Shown one piece after another: positions 5,767 to 62,188 of a DNA stretch of 64,000 nucleotides. The position numbers and the translations under genes are program-made. The notes beneath the pieces are model-generated. The model did not search any database, was not told the DNA's origin, and was given only the letters and a program-made list of their open reading frames with translations. The number at the start of each line of letters is the position of its first letter. Within the stretch, counting starts at the first letter, position 1. The stretch comes from Pedobacter cryoconitis (GTDB taxonomy: Bacteria; Bacteroidota; Bacteroidia; Sphingobacteriales; Sphingobacteriaceae), in NCBI RefSeq assembly GCF_014200595.1, contig NZ_JACHCG010000001.1, forward strand, positions 124,001 through 188,000, read 5' to 3'.

Positions 5767-8058
5767 ATGATGAAACATTTCTTATCAGCATTACTTATTT
5801 CTGCTGCTATGCCTGTACTGGCGCAGCAAGCAGGTAAAGTGACGGACCCGGTAGACTGGGTTAATCCGCTAATGGGGACGGCAAGTAAACCAAGCCTGTC
5901 TAATGGTAATACTTATCCAACAATTGCAGTTCCATGGGGAATGAATTTCTGGACTCCGCAAACTGGTAAAATGGGTGACGGATGGGCTTATACTTATGAT
6001 GCTGATAAAATCAGAGGATTCAAACAAACACATCAGCCTTCTCCTTGGATGAACGATTACGGACAATTCTCGGTGATGCCGGTAACTGGTAAAATGAAAT
6101 TCAACCAGGATGAGCGTGCAAGCTGGTTCTCTCATAAGGCAGAAATTGTAAAGCCATATTATTACAGTGTATACCTGGCTGATGCGAATGTAACTACTGA
6201 AATTACACCTACAGAGCGTGCAGCTCAGTTCCGCTTTACTTTTCCGAAGTCTGATAGTTCTTATGTAGTGATTGATGCTTTTGATAAGGGATCATATATT
6301 AAAGTTATCCCGAAGGAAAGAAAAGTTATAGGATACAGCACACGTTATGCAAGCGGCCCGCTGCCTGCTAATTTTAAAAACTACTTTGTTATCTACTTTG
6401 ATAAGGCTATTTCTTCTGCAAATACATGGCACGGAAATACTTTGGCAAAAGATACACTGGAGCTGAAAAGTGATCATTCTGGTGCAATCATAGGATTTAA
6501 GACTGAAAAAGGAGAAAAGGTAGGGATGAAAGTCGCTTCGTCTTTTATCAGTGTTGAACAAGCCGAAATCAGTTTAAAGAGAGAACTGGCAAATGATACT
6601 TTTGAAGCTACACAGCAAAAGTCAAGAGCGATATGGAACAAAACTTTAGGTAAGATTTCTATCGAAGGCGGAACTGTTGATCAGACGCGTACTTTCTACT
6701 CGAGTTTATACCGCACTTTATTTTTCCCGAATAAATTATATGAGATAGACGCGAATAATAAAATTGTTCACTGGAGTCCATACAATGGTAAAACTATGCC
6801 TGGGTATATGTTTGCTGGTACGGGTTTCTGGGATACCTTCAGAGCGCTGTATCCATTCTTAAACCTGGTTTATCCTGCAATCAATAAGGAAATGCAGCAG
6901 GGATTGGTAAATGATTATAAAGAGGGTGGATGGTTACCTGAATGGTCAAGCCCTGGTTATGCAAATTGTATGATTGGTAACAACTCTGCTTCTGTAGTTG
7001 CGGATGCTTACATCAAAGGGTTACGCGGATATGATATTGAGAGTTTATTTGAAGCGCTGAAACATGGGGCGAATAATGAAGGGCCAAATGAAGCCGTTGG
7101 AAGAGCTGGTGTAAAGTATTACAATGAGTTGGGTTATGTGCCTTATGATGTTAAACTGAATGAGAATGCAGCCAGAACATTAGAGTATGCTTATGATGAC
7201 TTTACGATTTATCAATTGGGAAGAGCACTTAAAAAACCAGCTGCTGAAATTGATATCTATAAGAAAAGAGCAATGAACTATAAAAACCTTTTTGATCCTT
7301 CTTCGGGCTTAATGCGCGGAAAGAATAAGGATGGTTCATTCCAGTCGCCTTTTAACCCGTTTAAATGGGGTGATGCTTTTACAGAAGGAAACAGCTGGCA
7401 TTATTCATGGTCAGTTTTCCAGGATGTAAATGGCCTGGTTGGGCTAATGGGTGGTAAAAACAAGTTTGTAGAGAAACTGGATTCAGTATTTACAATGCCT
7501 CCTGTTTTTGATGCAAGTTATTATGGTTCTGTAATTCATGAAATCAGAGAGATGCAGATTGCGAACATGGGCCAGTATGCGCATGGTAATCAGCCGATAC
7601 AACACATGATTTACTTGTATAACTATGCCGGACAACCCTGGAAAGCTCAGTACTGGTTAAGAGAAACGATGAACAGAATGTATAAGGCTACGCCTGATGG
7701 CTATTGTGGAGATGAGGATAACGGGCAGACTTCTGCCTGGTATGTTTTCTCTGCTATGGGCTTTTATCCGGTTACACCTGCCACTGATCAATATGTAGTT
7801 GGTGCACCTTTATTCAAAAAAGTAACGGTGAACCTGGATAATGGAAAACAGATTGTGATCAATGCTGCGGCAAACAGTGTAGATAACAAGTATATCAATG
7901 CGTTGAAATACGACGGTAAGGCTTATGGTAAAAACTGGTTAAGCCACTCTGATTTAGTTAAAGGGGCTACATTGGATTTCGATATGACTGCTGCGCCTAA
8001 CAAGACCAGGGGAACTGCGGAAAGTGATTTCCCATATTCTATGTCAACAGAGAAATAA
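5767..8058 (+). CDS. GH92 alpha-mannosidase
   Basis: A 763-residue exported glycoside hydrolase with signal peptide (residues 1-19, ending PVLAQ). GH92 enzymes are Ca-dependent exo-alpha-mannosidases that trim N-glycans and fungal mannans. The N-terminal beta-sandwich begins WVNPLMGTA and includes NGNTYPTIAVPWGMNFW. The (alpha/alpha)6 domain carries GTGFWDTFRALYP, EWSSPGYANCMIGNNSA and the acidic active-site loop GDEDNGQTSAWYVFSAMGF. Length and motif order match the family. The ATG at 5767 could be replaced by the next codon, also ATG. No SusC/SusD pair is nearby, so this is not a classical polysaccharide utilization locus. A terminator follows. Confidence 0.93.
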   Translation: MMKHFLSALLISAAMPVLAQQAGKVTDPVDWVNPLMGTASKPSLSNGNTYPTIAVPWGMNFWTPQTGKMGDGWAYTYDADKIRGFKQTHQPSPWMNDYGQFSVMPVTGKMKFNQDERASWFSHKAEIVKPYYYSVYLADANVTTEITPTERAAQFRFTFPKSDSSYVVIDAFDKGSYIKVIPKERKVIGYSTRYASGPLPANFKNYFVIYFDKAISSANTWHGNTLAKDTLELKSDHSGAIIGFKTEKGEKVGMKVASSFISVEQAEISLKRELANDTFEATQQKSRAIWNKTLGKISIEGGTVDQTRTFYSSLYRTLFFPNKLYEIDANNKIVHWSPYNGKTMPGYMFAGTGFWDTFRALYPFLNLVYPAINKEMQQGLVNDYKEGGWLPEWSSPGYANCMIGNNSASVVADAYIKGLRGYDIESLFEALKHGANNEGPNEAVGRAGVKYYNELGYVPYDVKLNENAARTLEYAYDDFTIYQLGRALKKPAAEIDIYKKRAMNYKNLFDPSSGLMRGKNKDGSFQSPFNPFKWGDAFTEGNSWHYSWSVFQDVNGLVGLMGGKNKFVEKLDSVFTMPPVFDASYYGSVIHEIREMQIANMGQYAHGNQPIQHMIYLYNYAGQPWKAQYWLRETMNRMYKATPDGYCGDEDNGQTSAWYVFSAMGFYPVTPATDQYVVGAPLFKKVTVNLDNGKQIVINAAANSVDNKYINALKYDGKAYGKNWLSHSDLVKGATLDFDMTAAPNKTRGTAESDFPYSMSTEK

Positions 8059-29645: not shown

Positions 29646-30539
29646 TTAACTTTTGCTCTGGCGTTTCTTGTAGATCGGGTATAAGAATACGGCACCTAAA
29701 ATCAGGACAGAACCCATGTAGAATCCGGCAGACATGGTCTCTTTATGTCCAAAGAAAAGGAAGGCTAAAATAATCCCGTAAACAGGCTCCAGATTACTGA
29801 CCAGTGCAACGCGGAAAGCTGACAGGGTGCGCATCACAGAGACGCCTGCAATGTAAGCAAGCGCAGTACAGACTGTGCCAAGTATCATCAGGTAAATCCA
29901 ATCAGAAACACTCAGATTGAAGCTTTCATTGAGCAGGCTATGGTCAAACAGGCGGTAAATAGTGATCCAGAAAAAAGCACCGGAAAGCTCATAAAAGCTA
30001 ATCACTTTGGCATCACTTTTTTGTGCAAAATTAGAATTGATAATAGAGAACAGGCTCGAAGCTACTGCTGCGGAAAGACCGAAAATAATACCTGCGGTGT
30101 AATTGGATTCGAAATGAAAAATCAGGTAAATTCCAGAAATGATCACTATTCCAATAAAGATATCACCGATCTGAATGGCGGTCCTTTTAATGATAGGTTC
30201 AAGGATAGCTGTAAATAAGGTGAAAGAGGAGAGGCACACCAGTGTTACTGATACTGTTGATACTTTGATAGCCTGAAAGAAAAGGATCCAGTGAAGGGCT
30301 ACAATACTACCTGTAAAGAAGAATTGCAGAAACTCCTTCTTTGTTACCCTGATACTGAATTTTGTAGCTTTAAAATAGATCAGTAACGTGATGCTGGCAA
30401 TTAATACTCTGTACCAGACCATTTCGACCGAACCAACCGAAATCAATGCACCCAGAATTCCTGTGAATCCCCAGATAAAAACAGTAGCATGAAGAATCAG
30501 CAGGTTTCTGTTGATTTCCGAAGGAGAGAGCGGTTTCAT
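29646..30539 (-). CDS. EamA-family (DMT) transporter
   Basis: A 297-residue inner-membrane protein with about ten transmembrane helices in two repeats, as in drug/metabolite transporters. The first repeat starts ILHATVFIWGFTGILGAL; the second carries GTVCTALAYIAGVSVMRTLSAF and the typical NLEPVYGIILAFLFFGHKE near the C-terminus. The cargo cannot be told; amino acids or other metabolites are usual. Its ATG overlaps the lptF/G stop by one base (TAATG), so it is the last gene of the tgt-lptG-eamA unit. Confidence 0.9.
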   Translation of the reverse strand: MKPLSPSEINRNLLILHATVFIWGFTGILGALISVGSVEMVWYRVLIASITLLIYFKATKFSIRVTKKEFLQFFFTGSIVALHWILFFQAIKVSTVSVTLVCLSSFTLFTAILEPIIKRTAIQIGDIFIGIVIISGIYLIFHFESNYTAGIIFGLSAAVASSLFSIINSNFAQKSDAKVISFYELSGAFFWITIYRLFDHSLLNESFNLSVSDWIYLMILGTVCTALAYIAGVSVMRTLSAFRVALVSNLEPVYGIILAFLFFGHKETMSAGFYMGSVLILGAVFLYPIYKKRQSKS

Positions 30540-56339: not shown

Positions 56340-56771
56340 CTAATTCTTTTTAACTTCAAGGTTACACTTTTCACAGGTTCCGTAAGCAGTTGTGTTTACT
56401 GTTTTAGCTGTAAACCCTTTTGGCATTGTGCTATGTGGTACTGCAACATCCAGACAGTATATTTTATTGCAGGTGGTACAGTTAAAGTGAATGTGTTCAT
56501 CGTGGTGATGCTCTGCTGAGCATGAAGAAGAACAGATTGCATAATTAGCCGTTCCGTTCATATCCATAATCCGGTGCAGAATTCCTTTATCCTCATAAAT
56601 GTTTAAGATGCGGTAAAGTGTTACCCTGTCAATTTCTTTGCCGAGCTTTTTTTCCAGTTCAGGTTGTGAAATGGCGACAGTATCTAAAGCTATCTCTTCT
56701 AAAACACGAACTCTTTGTTTGGTATGTTTTAGTGCGTGTTCTTTGAGTATGTTAGTTGGATCGATTTTCAT
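56340..56771 (-). CDS. Fur-family regulator, probably Zur
   Basis: A 143-residue metal-dependent repressor. The N-terminal winged helix has KHTKQRVRVLEEIALD and DRVTLYRILNIYEDKGI; the C-terminal part has the ligand-rich SAEHHHDEHIHF and two CxxC pairs (CTTC, CEKC), the latter forming a structural zinc site. The identity as Zur rests on context: it is the last gene of an operon with an ABC system carrying a His-rich loop and diverging from a COG0523 GTPase. Fur, Nur or PerR roles are possible. It lies 5 bp after the upstream gene. Confidence 0.85.
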   Translation of the reverse strand: MKIDPTNILKEHALKHTKQRVRVLEEIALDTVAISQPELEKKLGKEIDRVTLYRILNIYEDKGILHRIMDMNGTANYAICSSSCSAEHHHDEHIHFNCTTCNKIYCLDVAVPHSTMPKGFTAKTVNTTAYGTCEKCNLEVKKN

Positions 56772-56776
56772 GTTCG

Positions 56777-57226
56777 TTAAATTGACTTTGCATTCACTAG
56801 CGCTATTGGTGGATTATCCATTGCATTTCCGGTGCTTAGTTTCAGCGTTCCTTTAATGGTTATAGTTTGATAGGTGAATTTAATCGGTTCAGCAAGCTCA
56901 ACCATCACCATAATGGGTACGCCATTTTTCCCGCAGAAATAACACTGGTTAATCGGAAGGGTCGAAAGCATAAATTTAGTTTGTTTCATCCCGTCTTTAA
57001 TCGGGACTAAATATCCTTCCAGTTCAAATGGTTTATTCGCGTATTTTTTAATATCGGCATTGTAAATGGCATACATCTGTGTATCCTTCACAATTTTAAA
57101 ATCTACTCCTCCGATCACGTCCCAATTAGAAGAGCTGATCTGATCATTGGGATTATGCTGAGCTTTCACTGCAAAACCTGAAAGTAGTAAAAATATAATA
57201 AGCAGTGGTTTCATTCGTATGTTCAT
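56777..57226 (-). CDS. Small exported CxxC protein (DUF3299-like)
   Basis: A 149-residue protein with a signal peptide (about residues 1-22, ending VKAQ). The middle reads FELEGYLVPIKDGMKQTKFM and LSTLPINQCYFCGKNGVPIM, where the Cys pair in QCYFCGK is notable. The string GYLVP and the strand pattern recall DUF3299; I hold this as likely, not certain. It lies between the permease (2-bp gap) and the Fur-family gene (5-bp gap). A periplasmic metal-handling role is inferred from position. The ATG at 57226 could be replaced by the Met four codons later. Confidence 0.72.
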   Translation of the reverse strand: MNIRMKPLLIIFLLLSGFAVKAQHNPNDQISSSNWDVIGGVDFKIVKDTQMYAIYNADIKKYANKPFELEGYLVPIKDGMKQTKFMLSTLPINQCYFCGKNGVPIMVMVELAEPIKFTYQTITIKGTLKLSTGNAMDNPPIALVNAKSI

Positions 57227-57228
57227 AT

Positions 57229-58458
57229 TTAGTTTTTAGACAATATCTTAGAGATATTTGACCGGTAAGCCTGCAAGGCAGGGATTACAGCTGCAAATAT
57301 ACCAATCGCCAGCCCGGCAACAAATAAATAAATTTCATCTTTCAGCAGGATGAAGCCACTTAACCTGGCCTGACTGCTTTCCTGATAGTTTCCAATGAGT
57401 TGCAGGACTAAATGTCCCAAAACCATTCCAATAATTGTACCAGCTAAAGTAAGCAGGATTCCTTCAAAAATCACAATGCAGAATAACTGGCTTCTGGAGG
57501 CGCCCAATGTCCGCATAATGGCCAGATCATAACTTCTTTCTTTTAGAGAGTTGTATAGATTGACAAACACACTGATGGCAGCGATAAGCATAATCAGGGC
57601 GGCAAACCATTTTAAGGTATCTACACCAACACCAATTAGTGAGAATAAGCGGGTGCTTTCCATTGCAGGGGAGGCAGCTTGCAGGTTGGTAGATTGATTG
57701 ACCATCCTTGGAAACATCACTACAGACATCGGAGACCTGTATTGGATGAGCAATGCTGTAATTTCCTTTTCATCACTGTGACCGGTCTGATCAGGCCGGT
57801 GATTTTTATGGTCATGATGTTCTGCGGCTTCTTCTTTTTCATGGTCTTCGTGCATTTTCCATACGCTGGAAATATTTGTCAGGATCAGGTTGTCTGTGAC
57901 ATTCCCCTGAGGGGCTAAAATTCCTACTACTTTATAGGCATGCGTTTTATGAATGTCTGAGCTGCCTGTAAGTCCATGGGCACCGAAAAAAGTATCTCCG
58001 ATTTTTAGTTTCTGATTGATGGCAACGGTTGAGCCTATGGTGACTTCAAAATCAGCCTTCCAGAATTTGCCTGTACTGGTTTTTAGTTTATAGATACTCA
58101 CGAAATTGCTATCTGTACCCACGATTCTGATACCCTGGTAATTATCGCCCTGCGCTAAGGGAACAGCTTTTTTAACAAAGGGACTGCGCGCTAATTCCTG
58201 TGCTTCTTTCAAAGGAATGTTTCCGGTAGGAAAGTCGATATAATAAATGCTGCTCAGGATTAGTTGCAGCGGACTGCCTTTGGCACCAACCACCAGGTCA
58301 ATGTCTTTAGCATTGTTATCCAGTTTCTCACCGATTTGTGTGGAGGCTAAAAGTAAAATTGTCAATATACCCGTACCAAAGGCAATGAGCATAATATTTA
58401 ATGCGGAGGATAATGGTTTAGACCATAGACTTTTCCAGCTGATTTTTAATGGGCTCAT
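57229..58458 (-). CDS. FtsX-like ABC permease with a histidine-rich loop
   Basis: A 409-residue MacB/LolC-type permease: one helix near residues 20-40, a large periplasmic domain and three C-terminal helices (about 275-400). The core motif near the third helix is SYDLAIMRTLGASRSQLF, typical of FtsX-like permeases. Inside the periplasmic domain residues 203-227 contain seven His (H203, 206, 214, 215, 217, 220, 227) with many Glu/Asp, a likely zinc-binding loop. Its start overlaps the ATPase stop by 4 bp. Together they form a type VII ABC system, which moves lipids or proteins mechanically rather than ions in known cases. Confidence 0.86.
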   Translation of the reverse strand: MSPLKISWKSLWSKPLSSALNIMLIAFGTGILTILLLASTQIGEKLDNNAKDIDLVVGAKGSPLQLILSSIYYIDFPTGNIPLKEAQELARSPFVKKAVPLAQGDNYQGIRIVGTDSNFVSIYKLKTSTGKFWKADFEVTIGSTVAINQKLKIGDTFFGAHGLTGSSDIHKTHAYKVVGILAPQGNVTDNLILTNISSVWKMHEDHEKEEAAEHHDHKNHRPDQTGHSDEKEITALLIQYRSPMSVVMFPRMVNQSTNLQAASPAMESTRLFSLIGVGVDTLKWFAALIMLIAAISVFVNLYNSLKERSYDLAIMRTLGASRSQLFCIVIFEGILLTLAGTIIGMVLGHLVLQLIGNYQESSQARLSGFILLKDEIYLFVAGLAIGIFAAVIPALQAYRSNISKILSKN

Positions 58459-59084
58459 TTTAGTTCGTAAGTATTGGTAAATGCATCTTTAACTCTTTTA
58501 TCATGGGTAGCTACAATTAATGTGGCCTGATTTAAGCCGGATTGTTGCAGCAATAGTTCAAGCACAGCCTGCGCATTTTTATCGTCCAGACTGGAAGTCG
58601 GCTCATCAGCAATTAATAGAGCTGGTTTATTGATTACCGCCCTTGCGATAGAAACTCTTTGCAGTTGCCCCTGACTTAATTCACTGGGGTAACTGTTTTT
58701 CTTATCCGCTATGCCTAATGAGGTTAAGACTTCGTTTACTCTTTTCAGATTTTCGGGAAGACGGGCAAAACTCTGGGCCATAACCAGGTTTTCTGCAATA
58801 GTCAGACTTTTGATTAAATGAGGACGCTGAAAGATGATCCCTATATTTCTTCCTCTAAACTGATCGAGTTCGCGGGAGGACAGGGAATAGATTGAGGTAC
58901 CATCCATATTTACTGCGCCGGCAGCTGGTTTTAATATCCCGGTTAGGATGTGCAGCAGTGTCGTTTTTCCGCTGCCCGATTCCCCTAAGAGTAACCATTG
59001 TTCGCCATTATTGATTTCCCAGTCTTTAAAGCTAATGCGGTGGGCATTGCCGTAACTGTGTGAAACTGATTTGATGGATATCAT
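58455..59084 (-). CDS. ABC transporter ATPase (LolD/MacB type)
   Basis: A 209-residue ATPase. Walker A is GESGSGKTTLLH, the signature is LSQGQLQRVSIARAV, Walker B is ALLIADEPTSSLD and the switch His is in IVATHDKRV. The size and sequence match LolD/FtsE-like subunits that partner FtsX-like permeases. It is the first gene of the operon: a zinc-type operator and a perfect -7 element lie 25-56 bp upstream, and its stop overlaps the permease start by 4 bp. Confidence 0.92.
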   Translation of the reverse strand: MISIKSVSHSYGNAHRISFKDWEINNGEQWLLLGESGSGKTTLLHILTGILKPAAGAVNMDGTSIYSLSSRELDQFRGRNIGIIFQRPHLIKSLTIAENLVMAQSFARLPENLKRVNEVLTSLGIADKKNSYPSELSQGQLQRVSIARAVINKPALLIADEPTSSLDDKNAQAVLELLLQQSGLNQATLIVATHDKRVKDAFTNTYELK

Positions 59085-59108
59085 TTATAGGAGTCTGTTT
59101 AATTTTAA

Positions 59109-59116
59109 CAAAAGTA
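59109..59116 (-). promoter_or_regulatory. -7 promoter element for the ABC-fur operon
   Basis: TACTTTTG on the minus strand is a perfect TAnnTTTG match 24 bp upstream of the ATPase ATG. The operator at 59118-59140 directly adjoins it upstream. Confidence 0.6.
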
Positions 59117-59117
59117 C

Positions 59118-59140
59118 TATATGCAAGTTTATTGCATATA
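59118..59140. promoter_or_regulatory. Operator box 1 (TGCAA-N5-TTGCA)
   Basis: TATATGCAA-GTTTA-TTGCATATA is a perfect 9-base inverted repeat spanning the -7/-33 spacer of the ABC operon promoter, where a repressor would block RNA polymerase. Confidence 0.7.
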
Positions 59141-59216
59141 GAATATGTGTAAAGAGTTTGCTACTGCATTTGAATAGGTAAACGCGCTGTTTTAAGGATT
59201 GTTATCTCCTGGTAAA

Positions 59217-59243
59217 TATAAATGCAATTATATTGCATTTATA
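59217..59243. promoter_or_regulatory. Operator box 2 (TGCAA-N5-TTGCA)
   Basis: TATAAATGCAA-TTATA-TTGCATTTATA is a perfect 11-base inverted repeat just upstream of the GTPase -7 element. It has the 19-bp core AATGCAAT-N3-ATTGCATT typical of Fur-family boxes. Confidence 0.75.
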
Positions 59244-59253
59244 TTGTTTATTC

Positions 59254-59261
59254 TATATTTG
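59254..59261 (+). promoter_or_regulatory. -7 promoter element for the COG0523 GTPase gene
   Basis: TATATTTG is a perfect TAnnTTTG match. It is flanked by operator box 2 upstream and overlaps box 3 downstream. The leader would be about 25 nt. Confidence 0.65.
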
Positions 59262-59274
59262 CAACTTGATTGCA
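59260..59274. promoter_or_regulatory. Operator box 3 (TGCAA-N5-TTGCA)
   Basis: TGCAA-CTTGA-TTGCA has perfect half sites and overlaps the -7 element and the expected transcription start of the GTPase gene. Confidence 0.65.
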
Positions 59275-59291
59275 TTAAATATACACATAAA

Positions 59292-60497
59292 ATGAAGACT
59301 AAACTATTACCTGTAACTGTACTCAGCGGATTTCTTGGAAGTGGGAAAACCACTTTGTTAAATCATATTCTCCATAACAAACAAAACTTACGGGTGGCGT
59401 TGATAGTCAATGATATGGGCGAAATAAATATTGATGCGAATGCGGTTCACCGGGAAAATATGTTATCCCGGACGGAAGAGAAATTGGTAGAAATGAGTAA
59501 TGGTTGTATTTGCTGCACGCTGCGGGAAGATTTGATTGCTGAGGTAGAGAAGCTTGCGAAAGAAGACCGGTTTGATTACCTGATTATTGAAAGTACAGGG
59601 ATTTCTGAGCCTGTCCCGGTGGCACAAACTTTCAGTTATGTGGATCTTGCCATGAATATTGACTTAAGTAAGTTTAGTAAACTGGATACAATGGTAACTG
59701 TGGTAGACTGTTTTAATTTTAAGAAAGATTTTGGGACGAATGAATTACTGGTAGACAGGGGATGGGTGGATGATACCGCAGACAGGCGGACTATTGTCAA
59801 TTTGTTAACGGATCAGATTGAGTTTGCGAATGTGATTATCCTGAATAAAACAGACCTGGTTTCTGCGGAAGATTTATTGCTGTTGAAAGCTGTGATCCGG
59901 AAATTGAATCCTTCGGCCAGATTAATTGATACTTCTTTTAGCAAGGTTGATTTGAAAGAAATACTAAATACTGGTTTGTTTGATTTTGATGAGGCTTCAC
60001 AAGGGGCTGGCTGGATTAAAGAGCTAAATGCAGAACATCTGCCCGAAACTGAAGAATATGGGATCAGCAGCACGGTATTCCGTTCTTCCAAACCTTTTCA
60101 TCCAGAACGTTTATGGGATTACCTGACTAAACAGTTTCCTCCGAATGTGATCAGAACGAAAGGGTTGTTTTGGTTAGCGCCTATGCCAGACCGTGCTTTG
60201 AACTTTTCACAGGCGGGCGGATCACTGCGGATTGAGAGTGCTGGAACATGGTGGGCGAGTATGTTGCCATCTGAAAGATTGAATTACCAGGATTTTACGG
60301 AGAATAAAAAGGAAATTGAGAACCGCTGGGATGTGAATTATGGTGACCGGATGAATGAATTGGTATTTATTGCGCAGGATCTTCAGAAAGAGCAATTACA
60401 CCAGGACTTAAATACTTGTTTGCTGACTGTAGAAGAAGAGCTTCAGCGGAAGAACAAAGAAGTATTTGCTAATCCTTTTGAAAAAGTAATTCAGTAA
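59292..60497 (+). CDS. COG0523/CobW-family GTPase, probable zinc chaperone
   Basis: A 401-residue G3E GTPase. Walker A is GFLGSGKT (from residue 13), the metal motif is CICC (Cys72, 74, 75) in MSNGCICCTLREDL, and the guanine loop is LNKTD. The C-terminal CobW domain (from about 285) ends with WDVNYGDRMNELVFI. COG0523 proteins under Zur control deliver zinc to client enzymes during shortage. Here the operators next to its promoter support that use. The frame is open 93 bases further upstream, through the operators, so the ATG at 59292 is the real start. Confidence 0.91.
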   Translation: MKTKLLPVTVLSGFLGSGKTTLLNHILHNKQNLRVALIVNDMGEINIDANAVHRENMLSRTEEKLVEMSNGCICCTLREDLIAEVEKLAKEDRFDYLIIESTGISEPVPVAQTFSYVDLAMNIDLSKFSKLDTMVTVVDCFNFKKDFGTNELLVDRGWVDDTADRRTIVNLLTDQIEFANVIILNKTDLVSAEDLLLLKAVIRKLNPSARLIDTSFSKVDLKEILNTGLFDFDEASQGAGWIKELNAEHLPETEEYGISSTVFRSSKPFHPERLWDYLTKQFPPNVIRTKGLFWLAPMPDRALNFSQAGGSLRIESAGTWWASMLPSERLNYQDFTENKKEIENRWDVNYGDRMNELVFIAQDLQKEQLHQDLNTCLLTVEEELQRKNKEVFANPFEKVIQ

Positions 60498-60552
60498 TTA
60501 TTGTTCAGTAGCCTGCGTTCGTAATAAATTGGTTACGGGCTTATGTTATTAA

Positions 60553-60578
60553 TGCAATATAGTTGCAATTGTGTTGCG
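60553..60578. promoter_or_regulatory. Overlapping operator boxes 4 and 5
   Basis: TGCAA-TATAG-TTGCA (60553-60567) is exact; it overlaps TGCAA-TTGTG-TTGCG (60564-60578), which has one mismatch. The pair adjoins a perfect -7 element upstream of the esterase gene. Confidence 0.65.
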
Positions 60579-60585
60579 TTAGTAT

Positions 60586-60593
60586 TATATTTG
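60586..60593 (+). promoter_or_regulatory. -7 promoter element upstream of the esterase gene
   Basis: TATATTTG is a perfect TAnnTTTG match, 8 bp after operator boxes 4/5 and 126 bp before the esterase ATG. Confidence 0.6.
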
Positions 60594-60617
60594 ATCTTCA
60601 TTATTTAGTTAATAGGT

Positions 60618-60661
60618 AAGCACCTGTAACGGGATTCATCACCCTGTTACGGTGCTTTTAA
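60618..60661 (+). terminator. Terminator-like hairpin in the esterase leader
   Basis: AAGCACC pairs with GGTGCTT, and inside it TAAC-GGG pairs with CCC-GTTA with small bulges; TTTTA and then AATTTT follow. It lies only about 20 nt after the expected transcription start of the -7 element at 60586, so that promoter would give a short RNA unless the hairpin is bypassed. It could instead serve the GTPase gene upstream. Confidence 0.6.
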
Positions 60662-60718
60662 ATTTTAATATCGGATCGTACGCGTATATTAGGGGTTTAA
60701 TCAATTCTCTAAATCGTT

Positions 60719-62188
60719 ATGATCAAAAAGATATGCTGCTTACTATCTTTATTTCTGGTTTTTACTTTAAATAGTTTTTCACAGCAATTTAAAGTGGCTT
60801 ATTCCCCTGCTTCATTAAATCGGCCCTTTACAGGAAAGGTTTTCCTCTACTTATCAAAAAATAATCCTGAACCCTTAACTGCATCTATTGGTATTGAAAC
60901 ATTAAATTGTTTTGCTGTAGAGGTTAAAGGGATCAAACCAGGGGAAAGTATTGTTATTGACGATCTGGCAACCGCTTATCCTGTGCTCCCTTCAGAAATG
61001 GAGCGTGGAACTTACTATGTTCAGGCAGTATGGGACTTAAATTTGGGTGGAAGAGCTATTGCAGCGAGCCCTGGGAATATCTTTAGTCAACCACAAAAAA
61101 TAGTAATAGGTAAAGACTTAAAGCAGTCTTTTACGTTATTGGCCGATCAGGTGGTTCCTGAACTTGTATTTCAGGAAACGGAATTTATTAAAGAGTTTAA
61201 GGCTCCTTCCAGGTTATTGAGTGATTTTTATCAGAAGAAATTTACTTTAGATGCAGCTGTTCAGTTGCCTGCTGAATATTATAAAAATCCTTCGGCTAAA
61301 TTTCCTGTACTGTTTGTGGTGACCGGTTTTGGAGCTGATCATCACTATATGTCTGTACAGGGTAAATTGCCTTCAGTAATTGGTACTACACCTGTTATCC
61401 GGGTATTTTTGGATGGCAATTGTGCTTTAGGACATTCTGCTTATGCGAATAGTGATAATAATGGCCCCTGGGGAGATGCATTAACTCAGGAATTTATTCC
61501 ATTGCTGGAAAAGAAGTACCGCTGCAATGGAGCAAGGATGTTGACGGGGCATAGCAGTGGTGGCTGGTCTGTTTTATGGTTACAAACACATTATCCGAAG
61601 CTGTTTTTAGCTACCGCTTCCAGCAGTCCTGATTATGTGGATTTCCGTAAGTTTCTGAATGTGAACTTATATAAAGATAGTAATCTGTTTTATGATGCTA
61701 AGGGGCAGATCAATCCGGGTGGAACGGTGGCTGGCAGATTCCCTTTTTCTTATTTGAAAGAAATGTACCAGGTGGAAAATGTGATTTCAAGGGGGGAACA
61801 GCAACATTCTTTTGAAGCTGTATTTAGTAAAAAAGGGAATGATGGATTACCGGAGTCAATTTGTGATCCTCAAACGGGGGTGATCAATCAGCATACTGTT
61901 GAAAATTGGAAAAAGTATGATATTTCTTTATACCTGAGAGAGAACTGGAAAGATTTAAGTAAAGACCTGAATGGAAAAATACGAATATCGATAGGGGATG
62001 AGGATAATTTTATGCTGAATTATCCAGTCAGATTAATGAATGATGAAATGAAAGCGGTACAGGCAGATTTGCTTTTTAAGTATTATCCTGGAGATCATTT
62101 TACGGTGAAGACAGCAGGATATATGGCTGATTTATCTGGTTTCCTCGAGGGGAAATATAAGCAATGGCTGCTTCAGACAAGCAAATAA
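60719..62188 (+). CDS. Exported esterase-like alpha/beta hydrolase
   Basis: A 489-residue protein with signal peptide (about residues 1-22, ending NSFSQ). Residues 25-170 form a beta-rich N-terminal domain; from about 190 the sequence follows the D-type esterase (PF00756) pattern: FPVLFVVTGFGADHHYM, LTGHSSGGWSVLWL with the nucleophile Ser, and a late GDHFTV with the catalytic His. The substrate is unknown; related enzymes cut siderophores or acyl-sugar bonds. A metal-type operator pair and a terminator-like hairpin precede the gene. Confidence 0.86.
   Translation: MIKKICCLLSLFLVFTLNSFSQQFKVAYSPASLNRPFTGKVFLYLSKNNPEPLTASIGIETLNCFAVEVKGIKPGESIVIDDLATAYPVLPSEMERGTYYVQAVWDLNLGGRAIAASPGNIFSQPQKIVIGKDLKQSFTLLADQVVPELVFQETEFIKEFKAPSRLLSDFYQKKFTLDAAVQLPAEYYKNPSAKFPVLFVVTGFGADHHYMSVQGKLPSVIGTTPVIRVFLDGNCALGHSAYANSDNNGPWGDALTQEFIPLLEKKYRCNGARMLTGHSSGGWSVLWLQTHYPKLFLATASSSPDYVDFRKFLNVNLYKDSNLFYDAKGQINPGGTVAGRFPFSYLKEMYQVENVISRGEQQHSFEAVFSKKGNDGLPESICDPQTGVINQHTVENWKKYDISLYLRENWKDLSKDLNGKIRISIGDEDNFMLNYPVRLMNDEMKAVQADLLFKYYPGDHFTVKTAGYMADLSGFLEGKYKQWLLQTSK

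Follow-up and report, generated by a model that had tools for sequence, protein, structure and literature searches.

A 64,000-nucleotide (nt) stretch of DNA from the soil bacterium Pedobacter cryoconitis, hereafter the window, carries between positions 56,340 and 62,188 what is probably the core of a metal-shortage regulon, the metal most likely being zinc. The regulon would join an ABC transporter operon that ends in the gene for a Fur-family regulator, a divergent gene for a ZigA-like COG0523 GTPase, a MerC gene located elsewhere in the genome, and a candidate small RNA (sRNA) whose 5′ end is complementary to the start region of an M28 aminopeptidase mRNA and is predicted to cover its start codon. 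The features of the locus are as follows; the boxes, found by palindrome search, have no strand, and the −7 elements are matches to TAnnTTTG.

56,340–56,771, minus strand: Fur-family regulator (Pfam FUR) from a Zur-like Bacteroidota subfamily, encoded by the operon's last gene
56,777–57,226, minus strand: exported CxxC protein with a ZrgE/DUF3299-like OB fold
57,229–58,458, minus strand: FtsX/MacB-type permease (Pfam FtsX, MacB_PCD), His-rich loop at about residues 203–232
58,455–59,084, minus strand: FtsE/LolD-type ABC ATPase (Pfam ABC_tran), first gene of the operon
59,109–59,116, minus strand: −7 promoter element TACTTTTG of the ABC/CxxC/Fur operon
59,121–59,137: box 1, beside the operon's −7 element
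59,222–59,238: box 2, at −33 in the GTPase promoter
59,254–59,261, plus strand: −7 element TATATTTG of the GTPase promoter
59,259–59,275: box 3, over the end of that −7 element and the expected GTPase mRNA start site
59,292–60,497, plus strand: ZigA-like COG0523 GTPase, 401 amino acids (NCBIfam ZigA, Pfam cobW)
60,552–60,568: box 4, at −33 in the sRNA promoter
60,563–60,579: box 5, overlapping box 4, with one mismatch
60,586–60,593, plus strand: −7 element TATATTTG of the sRNA promoter
∼60,598–60,659, plus strand: candidate sRNA with an invariant 14-nt 5′ end, a hairpin with a UCAUCA loop and a U tract
60,719–62,188, plus strand: exported esterase (Pfam Esterase), a neighbour and not a conserved member

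A first-pass annotation had described four closely spaced minus-strand genes diverging from the GTPase gene, and its coordinates, spacings and layout were all correct on re-checking of 56,340–62,188. The ATPase and permease genes overlap by 4 bp, gaps of 2 bp and 5 bp separate the permease from the CxxC gene and the CxxC gene from the Fur gene, and the GTPase gene on the plus strand runs from an ATG at 59,292 to a stop at 60,497, its entry in the list of open reading frames beginning at an upstream TTG. When the gene neighbourhood was compared across 80 relative loci, the ATPase, permease and CxxC genes were kept together in most of them.

The strongest sign of common control is the palindrome ATGCAAn5TTGCAT, which is present in five copies between 59,121 and 60,579. 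Searched as TGCAAn5TTGCA with at most one mismatch, these copies begin at 59122, 59223, 59260, 60553 and 60564 (the last with one mismatch) in two promoter regions, and the same pattern is found only once elsewhere in the 64-kb window, at 6417, in accordance with the shared promoter palindromes that had been noted earlier. Genome-wide, WTGCAAYNNNRTTGCWW with at most one mismatch gave 57 forward matches versus 16 for the reversed control; the looser TTGCAAN5TTGCAA with two mismatches gave 461 versus 254, so that matches to the loose pattern are mostly background. This palindrome is not known among the boxes of described Zur regulons. The boxes lie on the core promoters of both the ABC/CxxC/Fur operon and the ZigA-like GTPase, and, being common to the two, they are therefore likely to be tied to one regulator. 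Indeed, a box was found at 40 of the 43 loci with a local Fur gene and at 6 of the 37 without one (Fisher p 6.7 × 10−13, kinship ignored). The promoters themselves are of the Bacteroidota kind, in which the −7 consensus TAnnTTTG is placed at −12 to −5 in Flavobacterium psychrophilum in the available part of PMC9723704; a sigma-70 promoter scan returned 5 matches versus 5.8 by chance, as expected for this phylum. Upstream of the GTPase gene a box is present in 35 of 35 distinct relatives, and TAnnTTTG follows it at 24–34 nt downstream in 34 of them (33 at 31–34 nt, one at 24 nt). At four loci (L153, L161, L025 and L032) the boxed GTPase promoter is kept and the GTPase frame behind it is seemingly lost or replaced.

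Two elements had escaped the first-pass annotation, namely MerC as a regulon member and the candidate sRNA between the GTPase and esterase genes. In relatives, the gap behind the GTPase gene holds a conserved stretch even where the esterase is missing. In the window this stretch is a non-coding element of ∼62 nt (∼60,598–60,659) with a terminator hairpin; it contains stop codons and no ATG, and for that reason is not an obvious small protein gene. An alignment of ten species shows an invariant 14-nt 5′ block, an invariant TCATCA loop and a stem that varies with its pairing kept, 5 of the 15 pairs being changed on both sides. The covariation score exceeded those of all 500 shuffles; slid-alignment controls scored lower, yet a slide of +3 equalled the count of doubly changed pairs, and the covariation term that RNAalifold itself computes was close to zero (+0.3). 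The copy in the window folds with a z-score of −4.12, that is, 4.1 standard deviations better than shuffles. A covariance model found one copy in this genome and, under strict filters, copies in 14 of 145 Pedobacter genomes, and all 14 homologues carry a box with 0 mismatches starting at −43 or −44 together with TAnnTTTG at −11 (13 homologues) or −12 (one). By this spacing, transcription is predicted to begin at the opening bases of the conserved block. With the filters off, 14 loci of genomes that had no match (an M28 locus and 13 neighbourhoods of MerC or the GTPase) yielded one extra weak match, G085 at 27.9 bits, which has a perfect box at −44 by coordinate comparison. Rfam returned 5 matches at E up to 1, with none above its gathering score and none over the sRNA. 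The element thus has what is seen in metal-sparing sRNAs of the RyhB type, a predicted promoter of its own with the regulator's operator, and a terminator.

The complement of the RNA's 5′ seed, AACTAAATAATGAA, has exact matches at only two places in the genome, the RNA itself and C3:223292, where the ATG of the match is the start codon of a lipoprotein-like gene for an M28 peptidase, a zinc aminopeptidase. One mismatch is found at 16 further places, four of which are start codons of long frames, encoding an EamA protein, an M57 HEIGH metallopeptidase, a GH76 protein and an unknown protein. Bacteroidota mRNAs lack a Shine–Dalgarno sequence and rely on the bases that immediately precede the start codon, according to the part of PMC6847099 available; since initiation uses these bases, an RNA pairing from −11 to +5 would be well placed to block it.

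We followed this complementarity across 40 genomes, 14 with the RNA and 26 without, of which 39 had M28. Mismatches were counted for the best match to the 16-nt complement near the M28 start, which in G028 was moved to an upstream ATG. Genomes with the RNA (n = 13) gave 0, 0, 2, 2, 2, 2, 2, 3, 3, 3, 3, 6 and 6 mismatches, and genomes without it (n = 26) gave from 3 (twice) to 7, such that at most 3 of 16 mismatches were seen in 11 of 13 versus 2 of 26 (p 3.2 × 10−6, kinship ignored). RNA presence requires four changes on an M28 tree of 30 genomes, and the contrasts between sister lineages go the expected way: G096 (0) versus G111 and G045 (7, 7), and G034 (0) versus G117, G078, G058 and G059 (7, 7, 5, 4), with both G096 and G034 perfect over the 16 nt. 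Among 1078 other gene starts in relatives, none came within two mismatches and nine had three. Conserved pairing with a metal-enzyme mRNA, as for RyhB-type sRNAs, is therefore found at the M28 start, with G053 and G523 as the exceptions.

MerC (Pfam MerC, 92.4 bits) is present in 79 of 119 Pedobacter genomes. It is encoded elsewhere in this genome, and in relatives it stands in the same operon or adjoining it. A box lies within 250 nt upstream of MerC at 30 of the 30 loci listed, 18 of these boxes being perfect, at dinucleotide-shuffle rates of 3.6% for any box and 0.4% for a perfect one. Neighbourhood mapping, which the first-pass annotation had proposed as a check, found the ATPase, permease and CxxC genes mostly together and joined with MerC, Fur and TonB receptors; in relatives the genes of MerC, the ATPase and the permease, of one to three CxxC proteins and of Fur can stand in a single run, with the GTPase or a TonB receptor encoded opposite. 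One in-frame stop is present in 5 of the 80 MerC matches listed (for example the L041/L101/L110 type), which are perhaps decaying copies. In the literature, nothing relevant to a link between MerC and Zur appeared among the matches listed.

A second COG0523 gene has a box upstream at 14 of 23 loci versus 3.0% in shuffles, a count that leaves out seven further loci belonging to the ZigA-like paralogue. In this genome the box (L112:5462, G000:C1:2993961) separates the gene of the second COG0523 GTPase from that of a C1-type cysteine peptidase diverging from it, and behind the GTPase comes the gene of an M1 zinc peptidase, an arrangement that would fit the replacement of a zinc peptidase by one free of zinc. 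The weaker box matches in the genome were inspected singly, and many lie inside coding frames. The intergenic matches retained were those at the second COG0523/C1 peptidase, MerC, Nramp-like and Met-zincin pairs, with the conservation figures covering the first two. The other two are box-like palindromes. One (L199:3185, G000:C2:580184) is flanked by the genes of an Nramp-like transporter and of a small exported protein rich in Cys and His; the other (L113:4997, G000:C5:326996), at a Met-zincin/beta-lactamase-like pair, is flanked by a Met-zincin gene (DUF4953) and the divergent gene of an exported protein.

Profile searches of the cluster proteins, also proposed earlier, confirmed a LolD/FtsE-like ATPase beside a MacB/FtsX-like permease. 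The ATPase scores 121.7 bits against Pfam ABC_tran, and 177 bits (FtsE) and 170.8 bits (LolD) in NCBIfam, both under the equivalog cut-offs; the permease scores 68.5 bits (FtsX) and 42.3 bits (MacB_PCD), and 53 of 64 aligned permeases have at least 4 His within residues 191–240, the His-rich loop. The best named relatives of the CxxC gene are 97% identical and belong to P. cryoconitis DSM 14825. The best solved match of its product is the DUF3299 protein PA4066, and it resembles ZrgE (DUF3299, OB fold); PA4066 was not among the 50 matches listed by Foldseek alone, where the best hits were OB folds (E 0.016). In some relatives two to four CxxC OB-fold genes stand in tandem beside the permease or Fur (L076:6162-8453, L081:6181-8447, L083:7549-8441, L085:7567-8453), and the tandem proteins are of two sub-types differing at and around the CxxC motif. 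The GTPase matches Pfam cobW (190.5 bits) and CobW_C and contains GCICC, consistent with the COG0523 protein with a CICC motif recognized at first, and it scores 534.4 bits over its full length against NCBIfam ZigA, whose cut-off is 600. The regulator scores 35.3 bits against Pfam FUR (cut-off 23.1); in NCBIfam its best match is Fur at 40.2 bits, Zur following at 28.3 against a cut-off of 167, with both scores far below the cut-offs. Its structural CxxC...CxxC zinc site (C98, C101, C133, C136) is invariant in 9 of 9 alignment rows, and the additional Cys 80, 84 and 106 are present in 8 of 8 rows of the subfamily and absent from the row of the genome's canonical Fur. The genome has another Fur-family gene whose product belongs to this Cys-rich subfamily (L125:5422-5841, in the G000:C1:3212472 region), and it directly precedes the gene of a His-rich P-type metal ATPase (L125:5939-7972).

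Metal sparing by small RNA is known from iron-starved bacteria, and a comparable circuit can be proposed here. When zinc is plentiful, the regulator (56340-56771) would bind ATGCAAn5TTGCAT over three Bacteroidota promoters and shut them off; when zinc is scarce it would release the DNA and three transcripts would be made. The first would encode the ATPase, the MacB/FtsX-type permease, the CxxC OB-fold protein and the regulator itself, making the response self-limiting, the second the ZigA-like GTPase, which may hand scarce zinc to key enzymes, and the third would be the ∼62-nt sRNA. Co-regulated MerC is the best candidate for metal transfer across the inner membrane, with the MacB-type ABC pair presumably acting at the periplasmic side together with the CxxC protein. 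The unpaired 5′ end of the RNA could then cover the M28 start codon, lowering translation and sparing zinc. A bolder form of this proposal, which we offer tentatively, is a Zur-type regulon with a dedicated zinc-sparing sRNA that blocks translation of M28 and perhaps M57 at their start codons when zinc is short, while the regulator also switches on a zinc-free cysteine aminopeptidase and MerC uptake, the latter replacing ZnuABC.

Several results weigh against a zinc-shortage regulon with an M28-directed RNA. Judged by NCBIfam, the regulator is no closer to Zur than to Fur and the GTPase falls under the ZigA cut-off, and the second Fur of the same subfamily, beside the P-type ATPase, may bind, share or compete for the boxes. 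The strict filters may miss copies of the RNA, G085 being counted as a genome without it. When as many as two mismatches are allowed, matches to the seed complement do not outnumber those to the reversed control (100 and 115 versus 121 and 121), G053 and G523 have the RNA yet 6 mismatches at M28, and two genomes without the RNA show 3. Duplex energy ranks M28 15th among 1904 start windows, with the start of an EamA-type transporter (29646-30539, minus strand) ranking first at −21.9 kcal/mol, in a set to which five loci were admitted for their seed matches and a gene could contribute one or two start codons; as a target criterion this ranking was not decisive. Such results would fit an RNA that is real but does not target M28, the match coming from an A-rich start context common in Bacteroidota: start regions are A-rich, the M57, GH76, EamA and unknown genes match with one mismatch, and the energies do not single M28 out. 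We nevertheless regard this explanation as unlikely, since conservation of the pairing tracks RNA presence across sister lineages and no other start in relatives reaches two mismatches.

The same regulon could instead sense a metal other than zinc, such as mercury-like soft metals, copper, nickel or cobalt, with MerC and a Cys-rich sensor serving detoxification or uptake. The MerC family is named for mercury resistance, the regulator carries extra Cys, and its paralogue adjoins a His-rich P-type ATPase. This appears improbable given that a ZigA-like COG0523 GTPase goes with the operon, that the Zrg parallel comes from zinc-starved Vibrio and ZnuA is lacking, and that the candidate RNA target is a zinc peptidase; in addition, the neighbours inspected included no mercuric reductase, though no search was aimed at one. 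We favour zinc on account of the ZigA-like GTPase, the likeness to Zrg, the missing ZnuA and the kind of enzyme that the candidate target encodes.

Least probable is that the conserved stretch is not a free sRNA but belongs to an mRNA, either as the esterase leader or as the 3′ end and terminator of the GTPase message. It does sit between the two genes, and the only other sign of a GTPase terminator before it is a weak match to the consensus at 60517-60540. Yet in 14 of 14 genomes a box and a −7 element of its own precede it at a fixed distance, the genes downstream vary and are often convergent, it adjoins MerC and not the GTPase in L223 and L229, and no esterase follows it in non-cryoconitis loci such as L224, L225, L227 and L228. 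The esterase had originally been counted as part of the regulon. It matches Pfam Esterase and its export is read from the N-terminus by eye, but it stands beside the cluster in only 4 of the 80 relative loci (L007–L010). The two boxes upstream of it belong to the sRNA promoter and persist where no esterase follows, and on these grounds it was dropped from the regulon.

If the metal-shortage reading holds, Bacteroidota gain a zinc-type regulon with a recognizable operator, here in a genome that lacks ZnuA; MerC and the MacB-type ABC pair are indicated as zinc-uptake candidates, and the locus supplies, from a non-pathogenic genus, a concrete, small and testable candidate metal-sparing sRNA with a named first target. 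The closest known system is Zrg of Vibrio cholerae and V. parahaemolyticus (PMC9820375, PMC9817125). The available text of PMC9817125 places zrgE (DUF3299) beside permease and ATPase genes and reports induction of these genes 76- to 206-fold in zinc-poor cells, and this, together with the PA4066 match, upholds the link to Vibrio Zrg that the first-pass annotation had drawn. In both systems the genes of a MacB-like permease, an ATPase and a periplasmic protein, DUF3299-like here, share one operon, which a zinc-shortage regulator controls in Vibrio and would control here. They differ in that here the regulator is in the operon, the ZrgE-like protein has a CxxC motif, the permease has a His-rich loop, and MerC and a ZigA-like GTPase are joined to the system, with no ZrgA/DUF2796 or ZrgD found. 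ZrgA (DUF2796) had no match among the cluster proteins or in the genome, a search made without a positive control, and was over cut-off in 0 of 395 Bacteroidota genomes, where no control genome matched either. ZnuA had 0 matches in this genome against matches in 11 of 14 control genomes. The earlier statement that ZnuABC and DUF2796 are missing thus stands for ZnuA and, within the limits of that search, for DUF2796. As for the proposal of a Bacteroidota relative of Zrg, the ATPase, permease and ZrgE-like protein agree with it, and the ZrgA search and the non-conserved esterase do not. Since the first three match and ZrgA was not found, the locus is likely a Zrg-like zinc-shortage regulon and not a strict Zrg member.

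The locus also resembles Zur regulons with COG0523 genes (PMC2770081) in placing such a gene under the palindrome of a Fur-family regulator; the sites in the accessible part of that paper are mainly from Firmicutes and Proteobacteria with some cyanobacteria, and 'Bacteroidetes' occurs 0 times there. Among sRNAs, Rfp18 of Flavobacterium psychrophilum (PMC9723704) is likewise a Bacteroidota sRNA with metalloprotease targets, a likeness by description, but it is described as pairing through its third stem–loop and supporting protease mRNA levels, and zinc or Zur occurs 0 times in the text available. In Staphylococcus aureus, sRNAs change under zinc-limiting calprotectin, with no Zur control mentioned in the portion of PMC11253595 at hand. 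No cognate sRNA of Zur was found among the matches listed from the literature searched, which did not extend to subscription journals and preprints. In the sections available of a 2022 review (PMC9294342), cognate sRNAs are given for iron, manganese and nickel regulators, Table 1 has 'none reported' for Zur, and further metal-sparing sRNAs are called very likely. The candidate described here shares with the RyhB-type sRNAs of that review its short length, its own terminator, a Fur-family operator on its promoter and a predicted pairing with start codons of metal enzymes, and differs from them in its zinc-type regulon and its Bacteroidota hosts.

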